From NCBI RefSeq assembly GCF_011045165.1, contig NZ_JAAKZI010000002.1:186001-250000 (forward strand): DNA of 64,000 nt, in the 5' to 3' direction. Shown here in pieces: positions 12,974 through 15,788 of this stretch. The position numbers and the translations under genes were made by a program. Each line of letters begins with the position of its first letter. The stretch's first letter is position 1. The DNA is from Arthrobacter silviterrae (lineage in GTDB: Bacteria > Actinomycetota > Actinomycetes > Actinomycetales > Micrococcaceae). Under the pieces are notes generated by a model. That model ran no database searches, had not been told where the DNA came from, and worked only from the letters and a program-made list of their open reading frames with translations.

Positions 12974-14545
12974 CTAGTTCAACGGGCCCGTCGCTGATTC
13001 GGCCGCCGCGCGGATGGCGCCGGAGCCCACCAGGCGGTCGGCCTCTTCGAGTTCCGGGGAGAGGAAGCGGTCCGATCCGGGACCCTGGACCGTCTCCCGA
13101 AGCAGCCCAATCACAGCGGCGCCGGCCGGGCCGGGGACCAGTTCACCGTCGGACATGGAGGTGCGCATGTCAATGGCGCGGGTGGCCGTGACCAGCTCAA
13201 TGGCGAGGACGCGGCGCAGGTTTTCCACGGAACGGCGCAGCTTGCGGGCGGCGTGCCAGCCCATCGACACGTGGTCCTCCTGCATGGCGGAGCTGGGGAT
13301 GGAGTCTACGGAGGCGGGCACGGCGAGGCGCTTGGAGTCCGAGACCAGGCCGGCCTGGGTGTACTGGGCGATCATAAGGCCGGAGTCCACGCCGGGGTCG
13401 CCGGCCAGGAAGGCGGGCAGGCCGTGGCTGCGGGCGGGGTCCAGCATGCGGTCGGTGCGGCGTTCGGCGATGGAGGCGACGTCCGCGGAAACGATCGCGA
13501 GGAAGTCCAGCACGTAGGCCACGGGCGCGCCATGGAAGTTTCCGTTGGAGGAGACGCGGCCGTCGGGGAGGACCACGGGGTTGTCGATGGCGGCGGCGAG
13601 TTCGCGGGTGGCCACCATGAGGGCGTGGTCCACGGTGTCGCGGGCGGCGCCGGCCACCTGCGGGGCGCAGCGCAGCGAGTAGGCGTCCTGGACGCGGTTG
13701 TCGCCCACGCGGTGCGAGGCCACGATCGGCGAGTTCGCGAGCACGCGCAGCATGTTGTCGGCGCTGGCTGCCTGGCCGGGGTGCGGGCGCAGCTCCATGT
13801 GCAGCTCGGGCAGGAACACCTGGTCGGTGCCCAGCAGGCCCTCGACGCTCAAGGCGGCGGTGATGTCCGCCGTCGTCAGCAGCATTTTCAGGTCGGCAAT
13901 GGCCATGAGCAGCATGCCGAGCATGCCGTCGGTGCCGTTGACCAGCGCCAGGCCTTCCTTTTCGGCCAGCTCAATGGGGGTGATGCCGGCCTCGGCAAGC
14001 AGTTCCGGGACGGGGCGGATTTCGCCGTCGGGCCCGGCAGCTTCGCCCTCGCCCATGAGCACCAGTGCGCAGTGGGAGAGGGGTGCCAGGTCGCCGGAGC
14101 AGCCAAGCGAGCCGAATTCGCGGACCACGGGGGTGATGCCGGCGTTGAGCACGTCCACCATGGTCTGGACGACGACGGGGCGCACGCCGGTCCTTCCGCT
14201 GGCGAGCGTCTTGGCGCGCAGGAACATCAGTGCCCGCACCACCTCGCGCTCCACGGCCGGGCCCATGCCGGCGGAGTGGGAGCGGATCAGGGACTTCTGC
14301 AGCTGCGTGCGCATGTCCTCGGGGATGTGGCGGTTTGCCAGGGCGCCAAAGCCGGTGGAAATGCCGTACGCCGGGGTGTCGGAGTGTGCCAGCTCTTCAA
14401 TGTGCGACCTGACGCGTTCGACGCCGGCCAGCGCCTCCGCGCTCAGCACCACCGTGGCGTTGTGGCGGGCGACGGCAATGACGTCTTCGGGCGTGACCCC
14501 GGAGGATGAGAGGGTGACTTCTTGGGACAGAACGGCGGCGGTCAT
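12974..14545 (-). CDS. hutH: Histidine ammonia-lyase
   Basis: A 523-residue enzyme that removes ammonia from L-histidine to give trans-urocanate, the first step of histidine use. The cofactor segment is GSLGCSGDLAPLSH; the Cys-Ser-Gly at about residues 148–150 should cyclise to the MIO electrophile. Cys in place of Ala is usual in actinobacterial members, so it is not a defect. Other family blocks are YGISTGFGALANR near the N-terminus and QEDHVSMGWHAARK near the C-terminus. ATG at 14545 is preceded by AAAGGAAC. An IclR-type regulator gene lies upstream on the same strand beyond a repeat-rich gap, and a palindrome at 14628–14645 could be its site. Confidence 0.95.
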   Translation of the reverse strand: MTAAVLSQEVTLSSSGVTPEDVIAVARHNATVVLSAEALAGVERVRSHIEELAHSDTPAYGISTGFGALANRHIPEDMRTQLQKSLIRSHSAGMGPAVEREVVRALMFLRAKTLASGRTGVRPVVVQTMVDVLNAGITPVVREFGSLGCSGDLAPLSHCALVLMGEGEAAGPDGEIRPVPELLAEAGITPIELAEKEGLALVNGTDGMLGMLLMAIADLKMLLTTADITAALSVEGLLGTDQVFLPELHMELRPHPGQAASADNMLRVLANSPIVASHRVGDNRVQDAYSLRCAPQVAGAARDTVDHALMVATRELAAAIDNPVVLPDGRVSSNGNFHGAPVAYVLDFLAIVSADVASIAERRTDRMLDPARSHGLPAFLAGDPGVDSGLMIAQYTQAGLVSDSKRLAVPASVDSIPSSAMQEDHVSMGWHAARKLRRSVENLRRVLAIELVTATRAIDMRTSMSDGELVPGPAGAAVIGLLRETVQGPGSDRFLSPELEEADRLVGSGAIRAAAESATGPLN

Positions 14546-14627: not shown

Positions 14628-14645
14628 TGTCCGGGATTCCGGACA
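14628..14645. promoter_or_regulatory. Palindrome upstream of hutH, candidate IclR-type operator
   Basis: TGTCCGG (14628–14634) and CCGGACA (14639–14645) form a perfect 18-bp palindrome with a 4-base centre, 83 bases before the hutH ATG. The size fits IclR-family operators and the IclR gene is the next one upstream. Binding is inference. Confidence 0.45.
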
Positions 14646-14672: not shown

Positions 14673-14699
14673 GGCCCGGCGACGACAAGATCGTGCAAT

Positions 14700-14935
14700 T
14701 CCCCGCCCCCACCCCCTGACGCTCCCTCATCTTTCGCTGTCTTTCCCGCGACGGTCCCTCACGTTTCGCGGGGTTTCCGGCGACGCTCCCTCGCAACTCT
14801 CGCGGCGGCTGTTTGCCCGCCGCTCGCCTCGCAAGCAAGTGATGGAGCGTATCGAAAAAAACCGCGAAAGATGAGGGAGCGTCGGGGAGAAACGGCCATA
14901 AAGTGAGGGAGCGTCGGGTGGGGTAGGGTGGGGGA
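14700..14935. repeat. 236-bp imperfect palindrome made of 32-bp repeats
   Basis: The left arm holds three direct copies of a 32-bp unit starting at 14718, 14750 and 14782; the conserved head is GACGCTCCCTCA followed by a TTTCGC segment. The right arm holds three inverted copies ending at 14851, 14883 and 14915 with the same 32-bp period. The stretches 14718–14737 and 14864–14883 are exact reverse complements over 20 bases. Outer flanks (C-rich left, G-rich right) extend the symmetry, and a small GC-rich inverted repeat sits near the centre. No reading frame is convincing. This fills most of the 448-base gap between the IclR gene and hutH. Confidence 0.8.
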
Positions 14936-14993: not shown

Positions 14994-15788
14994 TCAGCTG
15001 CCGGGGCGGCCGTAAATCCGCACCGAAAGCTCTCCCGCCACCTTGGTGACCCGCCTGGCCAGCGCGGGCCACTCCGACGCCGGCACCTTGGCCTCCAGGA
15101 ACGTCACGGCGACGGCCGCCACGGGCCAGCCCAGGTGGTCGGTGACAGCAGCCGCCACGGAGCCGAACCCTTCCGTGACTTCGCCGTTTTCCGTGGAGTA
15201 GCCGCGCTGGCGGACCTGGTCCAGGTGCGCGGAGAGCGTGGAGTACTTGCCGATGGGGTCCGGAACCTCGGTGCGCGAACTAAACGCCGCAGCATTCGGA
15301 TACAACGCGCGGACCTGCGACTTGGGCAGCGCTGCCAAAATGGCGCGCCCGCTGGCGGTGAGGTGGCTGGGAAGCCGCACGCCGACGTCGGTCACCAGGG
15401 ACGGGCGGTGCTTCGCCCGCTCCTCCACAATGTAGAGGACGTCGCGCCCGTGCAGCACCGCCAGGTGCGCGCTTTCGCCAATCCGGTCAACCAGGGCCTC
15501 GAGCAGGGGCCGGCCCAGCCGGGACAGCGGCTCCTGGCGTGAATAGGCGCTGCTGAGTTCAAAGGCTGCAATGCCCAGGCCGTAGCGCTGCTCCTCATGC
15601 AGGTGCATGACAAAGCCGCTGGCCTCCATCACACCGAGCAAGTGGTAAACGCTGGAGCGCGGCAGGTCCAGCGTGGTGGCGATGGTTGACGCCGCCAGCG
15701 GGCCCCTCTTGGAGGAGAGCAGCTTGAGGATGCGCAGCGTATTGTCCGCCGCCGGGACCTTGGATGGGGTCCTGCTTGTGTCTGTCAA
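14994..15788 (-). CDS. IclR family transcriptional regulator, probable hut regulator
   Basis: A 264-residue DNA-binding regulator. The N-terminal winged helix is visible in ADNTLRILKLLSSKRGPLA to RSSVYHLLGVMEASGF, and the C-terminal effector domain contains RPSLVTDVGVRLPSHLTASGRAILA, typical of IclR proteins. The start is a TTG at 15788 preceded by AAAGGCGG; a −10-like TAATCT lies at about 15871–15876 on the same strand. It precedes hutH in the same direction, separated by the repeat array, so control of histidine use by urocanate or a related effector is a reasonable inference, not shown by the sequence. Confidence 0.85.
   Translation of the reverse strand: MTDTSRTPSKVPAADNTLRILKLLSSKRGPLAASTIATTLDLPRSSVYHLLGVMEASGFVMHLHEEQRYGLGIAAFELSSAYSRQEPLSRLGRPLLEALVDRIGESAHLAVLHGRDVLYIVEERAKHRPSLVTDVGVRLPSHLTASGRAILAALPKSQVRALYPNAAAFSSRTEVPDPIGKYSTLSAHLDQVRQRGYSTENGEVTEGFGSVAAAVTDHLGWPVAAVAVTFLEAKVPASEWPALARRVTKVAGELSVRIYGRPGS

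Follow-up and report, generated by a model that had tools for sequence, protein, structure and literature searches.

What is a palindrome of six 32-bp repeats doing between a regulator gene and its likely target gene? The question is raised by the window, that is, the whole stretch of 64,000 nucleotides of Arthrobacter silviterrae analysed here (contig NZ_JAAKZI010000002.1, positions 186,001 to 250,000). The sequence-only reading of this locus had offered a structured RNA, a multi-site protein-binding platform or a dispersed element. The palindrome is here taken, with a probability of about 0.6, as a dispersed-repeat copy that is non-autonomous and cognate to a DUF559 protein encoded on contig C1 of the same genome.

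The layout first described, that is, three plus three inverted units, a 32-bp period, a mirror centre and a pair of arms identical over 20 bases, was reproduced in full. In detail, the left arm (14718..14793, + strand) has cores starting at 14718 (GACGCTCCCTCA), 14750 (GACGGTCCCTCA), and 14782 (GACGCTCCCTCG). In the right arm (14840..14915, − strand), the cores end at 14851 (TACGCTCCATCA, which is the weakest), 14883, and 14915 (the latter two GACGCTCCCTCA), and a centre of 46 bp (14794..14839) separates the inner cores. The period is exactly 32 bp in both arms, and the symmetry centre is located at about 14816.5. The 20-base identity links 14718-14737 to 14864-14883 read in reverse complement, and a repeat search returned the inverted arm pairs 14714-14762/14839-14887 (82% complementary) and 14749-14792/14873-14916 (73%).

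The blast search of the window array against its own genome gave 70 matches, including near-whole copies on contigs C41, C21, and C11, which are 78-82% identical and conserve the centre too. The unit of this genome consists of a 12-bp core, GACGCTCCCTCA (common variants GACCCTCCCTCA and GACGCTCCATCA), and a 20-bp spacer with an almost invariant G at position seven and a T-rich stretch. The 32-bp period, equal to three DNA turns, is kept in nearly all arms; a five-unit array at L015 (2305-2448) has a period of 33 bp throughout. With one mismatch at most, the core showed 73 + 78 genome matches against 13 + 10 for its reversed control, and dimers, that is, cores spaced by 32 bp with up to three mismatches, amounted to 43 + 51 (94) against 0 + 0. 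Roughly fifty related arrays exist in this chromosome (47 were called, and 39 in G251, a genome of another genus, arms being called in stretches around dimers only). Window-type dimers are present in 16 of the 23 genomes of the genus, own genome included, and absent from the other seven; across Micrococcaceae they were found in 73 of 395 genomes and in two of 32 genera. In G251, the core GACGCTCTCTCA gave 97 dimers against three control matches. Reversed controls of the family scan were also nonzero in G369 (one) and in G021 (six), the latter with zero matches to the pattern itself, which is unexplained. The palindrome is thus confirmed as a real member of a genome-wide family, as the dispersed-element option had it, and a local duplication artefact is ruled out. 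A phage or plasmid origin was dropped, as neither collection gave a match to the array at the DNA level.

The proposed partner of the array is a gene of 316 aa (contig C1, 111472-112419), which lies inside the inward arms of a window-type core. Its product has an N-terminus of the AbiEi type, a DNA-binding type, as recognised by a domain test, and a C-terminus resembling EDxHD/Vsr nucleases, that is, homing-endonuclease-like, with a predicted EDxHD catalytic fold. Gene positions in this work derive from a home-made codon-usage predictor, whose DUF559 calls are often partial. Among 30 homologues of the C1 gene, fetched one per genome, 21 are flanked on both sides by inward rows whose cores are similar. 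These 21 elements have a length of 1172-1307 bp (median 1262), and a one-gene unit carries inverted repeats at both ends, as insertion sequences and miniature inverted-repeat transposable elements (MITEs) do. Of the 13 DUF559 loci inspected, 12 had 32-bp rows, several of which have other cores. When the Pfam-DUF559 genes of the genus were scored, 10 of the 26 that could be assessed had a repeat of at least 15 nt common to both flanks, compared with 4 of 522 controls.

The cores at the DUF559 homologues are diverse, and include CTCCCTCA, CTTCCTCA, CTATCGCA, CTCGCTCA, C(G/C)GTATCA, CTCCTGCA, CTCGGTT(G/A), CTATCTCA, CCGCATCA, and CTCTCTCA. Two DUF559 genes of the own genome have two different cores, namely CTCCCTCA on C1 and CTCGGTTG on C36. 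Rows of the C36 type are present at other places as well (L027, L040, L045, and L046), and some of them adjoin window-type units. The gene ends of L027, L040, and L045 carry CTCGGTT-type together with window-type units and are possibly in the middle of a switch of specificity. Of the six DUF559 genes detected by Pfam in the own genome, a single one adjoins an array of the window type (by visual comparison of positions), but an initial view of the link as weak was dropped because others carry other cores. Across the genus, no correspondence between the counts of DUF559 genes and of dimers was seen by eye.

It is quite unlikely that these are ordinary repetitive extragenic palindromic (REP)/REPIN-like or MITE repeats whose mobility depends on an unrelated enzyme, with DUF559 as a passenger that favours the same niches at 3′ ends. 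REPs do occupy the same 3′-end position, and, next to the inward arm pairs 1.1-1.3 kb apart that enclose a DUF559 gene, some wide pairs enclose other genes. Against such a passenger stand the similar rows around the 21 genes, the uniform length of the elements and the covariation of protein and core described below. In addition, the RAYT profile (PF01797) had no match in the own genome and matched in two of 23 genomes of the genus, other transposases not being searched; RAYT as the mobiliser was rejected on this absence from the own genome.

The proposed link between the DUF559 gene and the core around it allowed a prediction. From the core flanking their DUF559 genes, rows of GACGCGGTATCAC were expected in G011 and G012, which have zero window-type dimers. 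The prediction held, with 70 and 45 such dimers, respectively; the other 21 genomes had none in 15 cases and 1 to 6 in six, and the control gave 0. Two stray dimers of this core, in G003 and G016, adjoin second DUF559 genes of these genomes.

The DUF559 gene is located beside the inositol-phosphate-synthase gene (ino1) in 23 of the 30 homologues; in 19, the opposite side is taken by one and the same amylase-type gene. At this locus, the cores differ between species at the same place. Proteins with the same core have a mean identity of 0.805 (17 pairs) versus 0.672 for those with different cores (154 pairs), and this excess, corrected for the nucleotide identity of ino1, was reached by none of 5000 label shuffles. 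The test was based on 19 ino1-locus genes from genus g1, namely the own C36 gene and 18 of the 30 homologues, with CTATCGCA and CCATCGCA merged and with the core of G002, G021, G006, and G022 taken from one arm or from a separate flank reading; the protein alignment (A1) included 28 of the 30 proteins, leaving out L252 (a near-duplicate) and L257 (an in-frame stop). A telling pair is G010 and G001, with an identity of 0.88 for the protein and 0.865 for ino1. The sequence of the DUF559 protein therefore tracks core specificity at one fixed locus. A second common fixed locus houses the g10 homologues L261, L267, L269, and L270, which showed no clear arm pair by the rule used.

Several observations weigh against the DUF559 protein as the partner of the arrays. 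Foldseek gave no PDB match for it at E ≤ 0.001; the homing endonuclease I-Bth0305I ranked third, after two mitoribosomal chains, and in a sequence-profile search it appeared only at E 0.21. The protein has Q247 where other DUF559 proteins presumably have a glutamate, which makes its nuclease activity uncertain. Two arms were not detectable in nine of the 30 homologues, the two arms around the gene are clearly unlike in G390, and no target-site duplication was recognised by eye in the printed flanks of the 21 elements. The recurrent ino1 neighbour indicates that the DUF559 gene itself rarely moves. Concerning the cores, G018 and G019 have CTCGCTCA in common with G010 and G001 at a protein identity of only 0.68-0.69, and the dispersed core of G006, CTCCTTCA, was not found at the best DUF559 locus of that genome. 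In the 77 genomes of g10, a clade match at E ≤ 1e-119 is associated with at least five dimers (41/4/8/24, Fisher 3.5e-9; at E 1e-105, 43/10/6/18, Fisher 4.8e-6; Spearman 0.59), but the cut-off was chosen post hoc, phylogeny inflates these figures and about five candidates were scored per genome. Moreover, eight of these genomes have at least five dimers but no match at the stricter cut-off, and four show the reverse. Finally, the agreement of arrays and DUF559 arms would also be expected if the latter were simply two more arrays, a view weakened by the paralogue-specific cores and the protein covariation.

The spacing of the two arms bears on how the arrays may be read. In 53 pairs, the gaps from the inner + to the inner − core are 4-6, 14-16, 25, 36-39, 45-46, 57, 64, 69 bp, and beyond. 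Their periodicity has a Rayleigh R of 0.85 near 10.6 bp (50 gaps up to 70 bp), a value reached by none of 2000 jittered sets; the step is about 10.5 bp, and the gaps of 64 and 104 deviate from this phase. The larger gaps are possibly 5, 15, or 25 bp plus a decayed 32-bp unit. In a search with free gaps (1 to 31) in the 395 genomes, among the matches listed (66 of 67 plus-strand matches, counted by hand), gap 15 was found in 41, 4-7 in 17, 25 in four, 11-13 in three, and 27 in one. The gap-15 class is not independent because its members have a conserved centre (CTTTC..GAAAG) in common. Since the gaps step with the DNA helix, a protein sitting on one face of the DNA is suggested. This phasing, together with a co-varying protein that has a domain of a DNA-binding type, also lends support to the option of a multi-site protein-binding platform.

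The structured-RNA option fared otherwise. Spacers within one arm are 78-80% alike, and spacers of opposite arms are no more alike than spacers taken from arrays unrelated to each other (own genome, 0.51 vs 0.52; G251, 0.50 vs 0.50). The arms therefore seem to expand by tandem duplication, and nothing preserves an ability to pair. Among own-genome units, the first window unit folds at −2.4 kcal/mol (z −1.8) and four stretches of three to four units have z-scores of −0.5 to +1.3, no better than shuffles; the Rfam search with the array matched no family. That both arms pair as a single giant RNA hairpin or a cruciform is hardly credible: short perfect palindromes are frequent at the inner cores, but the spacers are at background, for 32 of the 64 own-genome arms the nearest 300 bp contain no opposite arm, and the gap lengths follow the DNA helix. 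The giant hairpin was consequently rejected.

The arrays are predominantly found at the ends of genes. With flanking genes read in the sense of the core, the 64 arms of at least two units in the own genome are +- (34), ++ (19), -- (9), and -+ (1), with one at a contig edge; the 63 arms of G251 are +- (26), ++ (18), -- (10), and -+ (4), with five remaining. In 54 of 64 and 45 of 63 cases, respectively, the arm comes after a gene and in sense with it, with a median distance from stop codon to outer core of about 15.5 and 14 bp and a few outlying distances of hundreds of bp. Neighbouring arms always point inward (16/16 and 23/23, in total 39/39), and single arms between co-directional genes are in sense in 21 of 24 cases (p = 0.0003). 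Arrays are also kept at orthologous gene ends while the core changes with the species. For instance, at the gene ends adjoining a heme-synthase-like gene the core is GACGCTCTCTCA in G251 and GACGCTCGCTCA in G340, and at those adjoining an aldehyde-dehydrogenase-like gene it is GACGCTCCTTCA in G006, GACGCTCGCTCA in G001, and GACCCTYCCTCA in G000 (gene names read from sequence).

These features, that is, the short distance past the stop, the sense of single arms, the inward facing, and the persistence at orthologous ends, would fit host regulatory DNA, in which the arrays serve as polar roadblocks or insulators, bound by protein, where RNA polymerase is halted as it leaves a gene, doubled between convergent genes, with DUF559 as the roadblock protein. 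This is rather unlikely, given the sporadic presence of arrays and their absence from the window's junction in the relatives compared. Moreover, placement alone is no proof of function, because published REPs also lie less than 20 bp past 3′ ends, between convergent and unidirectional genes (PMC3733652). The arrays may also serve the host, for instance as a roadblock at gene ends, and the sense bias is the best hint of this.

In G003 and G251, the arrays avoid the region opposite dnaA: all 29 dimers of G003 and all but two array sites of G251 are within about 1.46 Mb of this gene. Such dispersed, phased and confined sites could be bound by another protein that organises the chromosome, as in nucleoid occlusion or segregation. 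This is very unlikely: the core varies between related species, seven of the 23 genomes of the genus have no window-type dimer, and the DUF559 link accounts better for the cores.

The origin of the window copy can be traced at its left end. No living gene precedes the left arm. Beyond the left outer core, about 50 bp are common to the arrays of the window and of C41, with homology starting at about 14668. On C41, this sequence is the end of a glucose/sorbosone dehydrogenase gene, of which a longer copy abuts the array; in the window, it is a relic of 13 codons and a stop (GDDKIVQFPAPTP-stop, 14678..14719, + strand) without a gene. The relic may be a trace of copying that overshot the array, or alternatively of a former neighbour gene that was lost.

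As the first description held, the array lies between a regulator and its likely target. The IclR-family regulator (14994..15788, − strand) precedes the right arm, which is in sense with it, the distance from stop to outer core being 78 bp; downstream lies an aromatic amino acid lyase gene (12974..14545, − strand), histidine ammonia-lyase-like by eye. The IclR-lyase junction was measurable in 65 of 80 fetched relatives, and the scan of all 80 loci found core dimers in three only, all outside this junction. Among the 13 nearest relatives, 10 have a gap of 84-228 bp, and the other three have one of 1375-2018 bp that contains further genes; in the window it is 448 bp. Judged from these sequences, the array does not look like a component of the IclR-lyase circuit. 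A palindrome upstream of the lyase gene (TGTCCGGGATTCCGGACA, 14628-14645), which recurs slightly altered in the relatives' gaps, is a likely IclR operator. Other long near-perfect hairpins, unlike the 32-bp arrays in sequence, are located between the two genes in related species (L063, L066, and L068). In L067 (6786-8162), from Arthrobacter sp. H35-MC1, the IclR-lyase gap contains a long hairpin in two copies with an insert between them. Read by eye, the insert encodes a protein resembling DUF559, which looks as though a further family of hairpins moves together with a gene of this kind.

The computed features, namely the dispersed family, its phasing and placement, the gene between arms, the covariation of protein and core, and the shared gene end, can be joined in one scheme, in which binding, cutting, copying by repair and its direction are inferred. 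An arm would be a row of 32-bp units, each with the specificity core first, three helical turns apart, and the C1 DUF559 protein would bind the cores side by side on a single face of the DNA and then nick or cut there. Copying during repair would spread arrays to new sites, mainly the 3′ ends of genes where harm is least, and would homogenise the units, so that the arrays of a genome stay matched to its nuclease in specificity. The window copy would derive from the array beside the glucose/sorbosone-dehydrogenase gene, taking the last codons of that gene along. It is a tentative extension, put at somewhat less than even odds, that these arrays represent a separate class of genomic parasite or a domesticated system, where an AbiEi-EDxHD nuclease, kept at one locus in most species of the genus, “writes” rows of its recognition site at gene ends, and a change of specificity converts the rows by cut-and-repair. 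If true, the rows would be a genome-wide record of nuclease specificity.

No description of this repeat family was found in the literature at the level of titles, abstracts and listings, with most subscription journals outside the search, and no existing name was found for the partnership of repeat and enzyme. The closest analogue is REP/REPIN-RAYT, in which many short intergenic repeats are placed mostly just past 3′ ends, often as inward pairs, and the RAYT genes are flanked by their repeat (PMC3733652); the DUF559 gene, placed between rows in 21 of 30 homologues, would be a possible mobiliser of a different enzyme class. High copy number and intergenic 3′-end placement are common to both; on the contrary, the present units, as folded for this genome, have no stable hairpin and form fixed 32-bp tandem rows, and the enzyme is AbiEi-EDxHD/Vsr-like instead of a Y1 tyrosine transposase. 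By analogy, the system would work like REPIN-RAYT, with a unit and an enzyme of neither its kind. The present units start with RACG, and their complement therefore ends with CGTY, which resembles the CGTC-tagged REPs. The latter, which according to their authors seem to have no dedicated transposase, are hairpins with an 8-9-bp stem from five other phyla (same source), and the main text of PMC3733652 has no mention of Arthrobacter, Micrococc- or Actinobacter-.

The C-terminal fold of the DUF559 protein is predicted to resemble I-Bth0305I, an EDxHD homing endonuclease. According to a review (PMC3943268), this enzyme seems to dimerise on a site nearly 60 bp long, close to two 32-bp units. Here, however, the setting is a bacterial chromosome and not a phage intron, with many arrays per genome and an AbiEi-type N-terminus. 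This N-terminal part resembles the AbiEi antitoxin of type IV toxin-antitoxin systems, which binds inverted repeats in its own promoter (PMC7319586); in the present case it is fused to a nuclease-like domain, and the nearest neighbours of the gene, where an AbiE system would have its DUF1814/AbiEii toxin gene, are mostly ino1 (23 of 30) and the amylase-type gene (19 of 30). Among other repeats, plasmid iterons are direct repeats in helical phase; the present rows differ in being dispersed at gene ends and not at a replication origin. An intrinsic terminator, that is, a stable hairpin with a U-run, was set aside on the folding of the window arms (no terminator scan was made), and a CRISPR array on the similarity of spacers within an arm (cas genes were not searched). 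The C-rich sense strand had also raised Rho/rut termination as a possible reading.

REP and RAYT are the main known case of dispersed palindromic repeats that have a resident enzyme, and an unrelated protein appears to have reached a similar arrangement in actinobacteria. The finding offers a possible function for one branch of DUF559. The roughly ten core specificities at one orthologous locus provide natural protein-DNA pairs for recognition of the AbiEi/Vsr type, and a direct route to testing the concerted sequence change of dispersed repeats.
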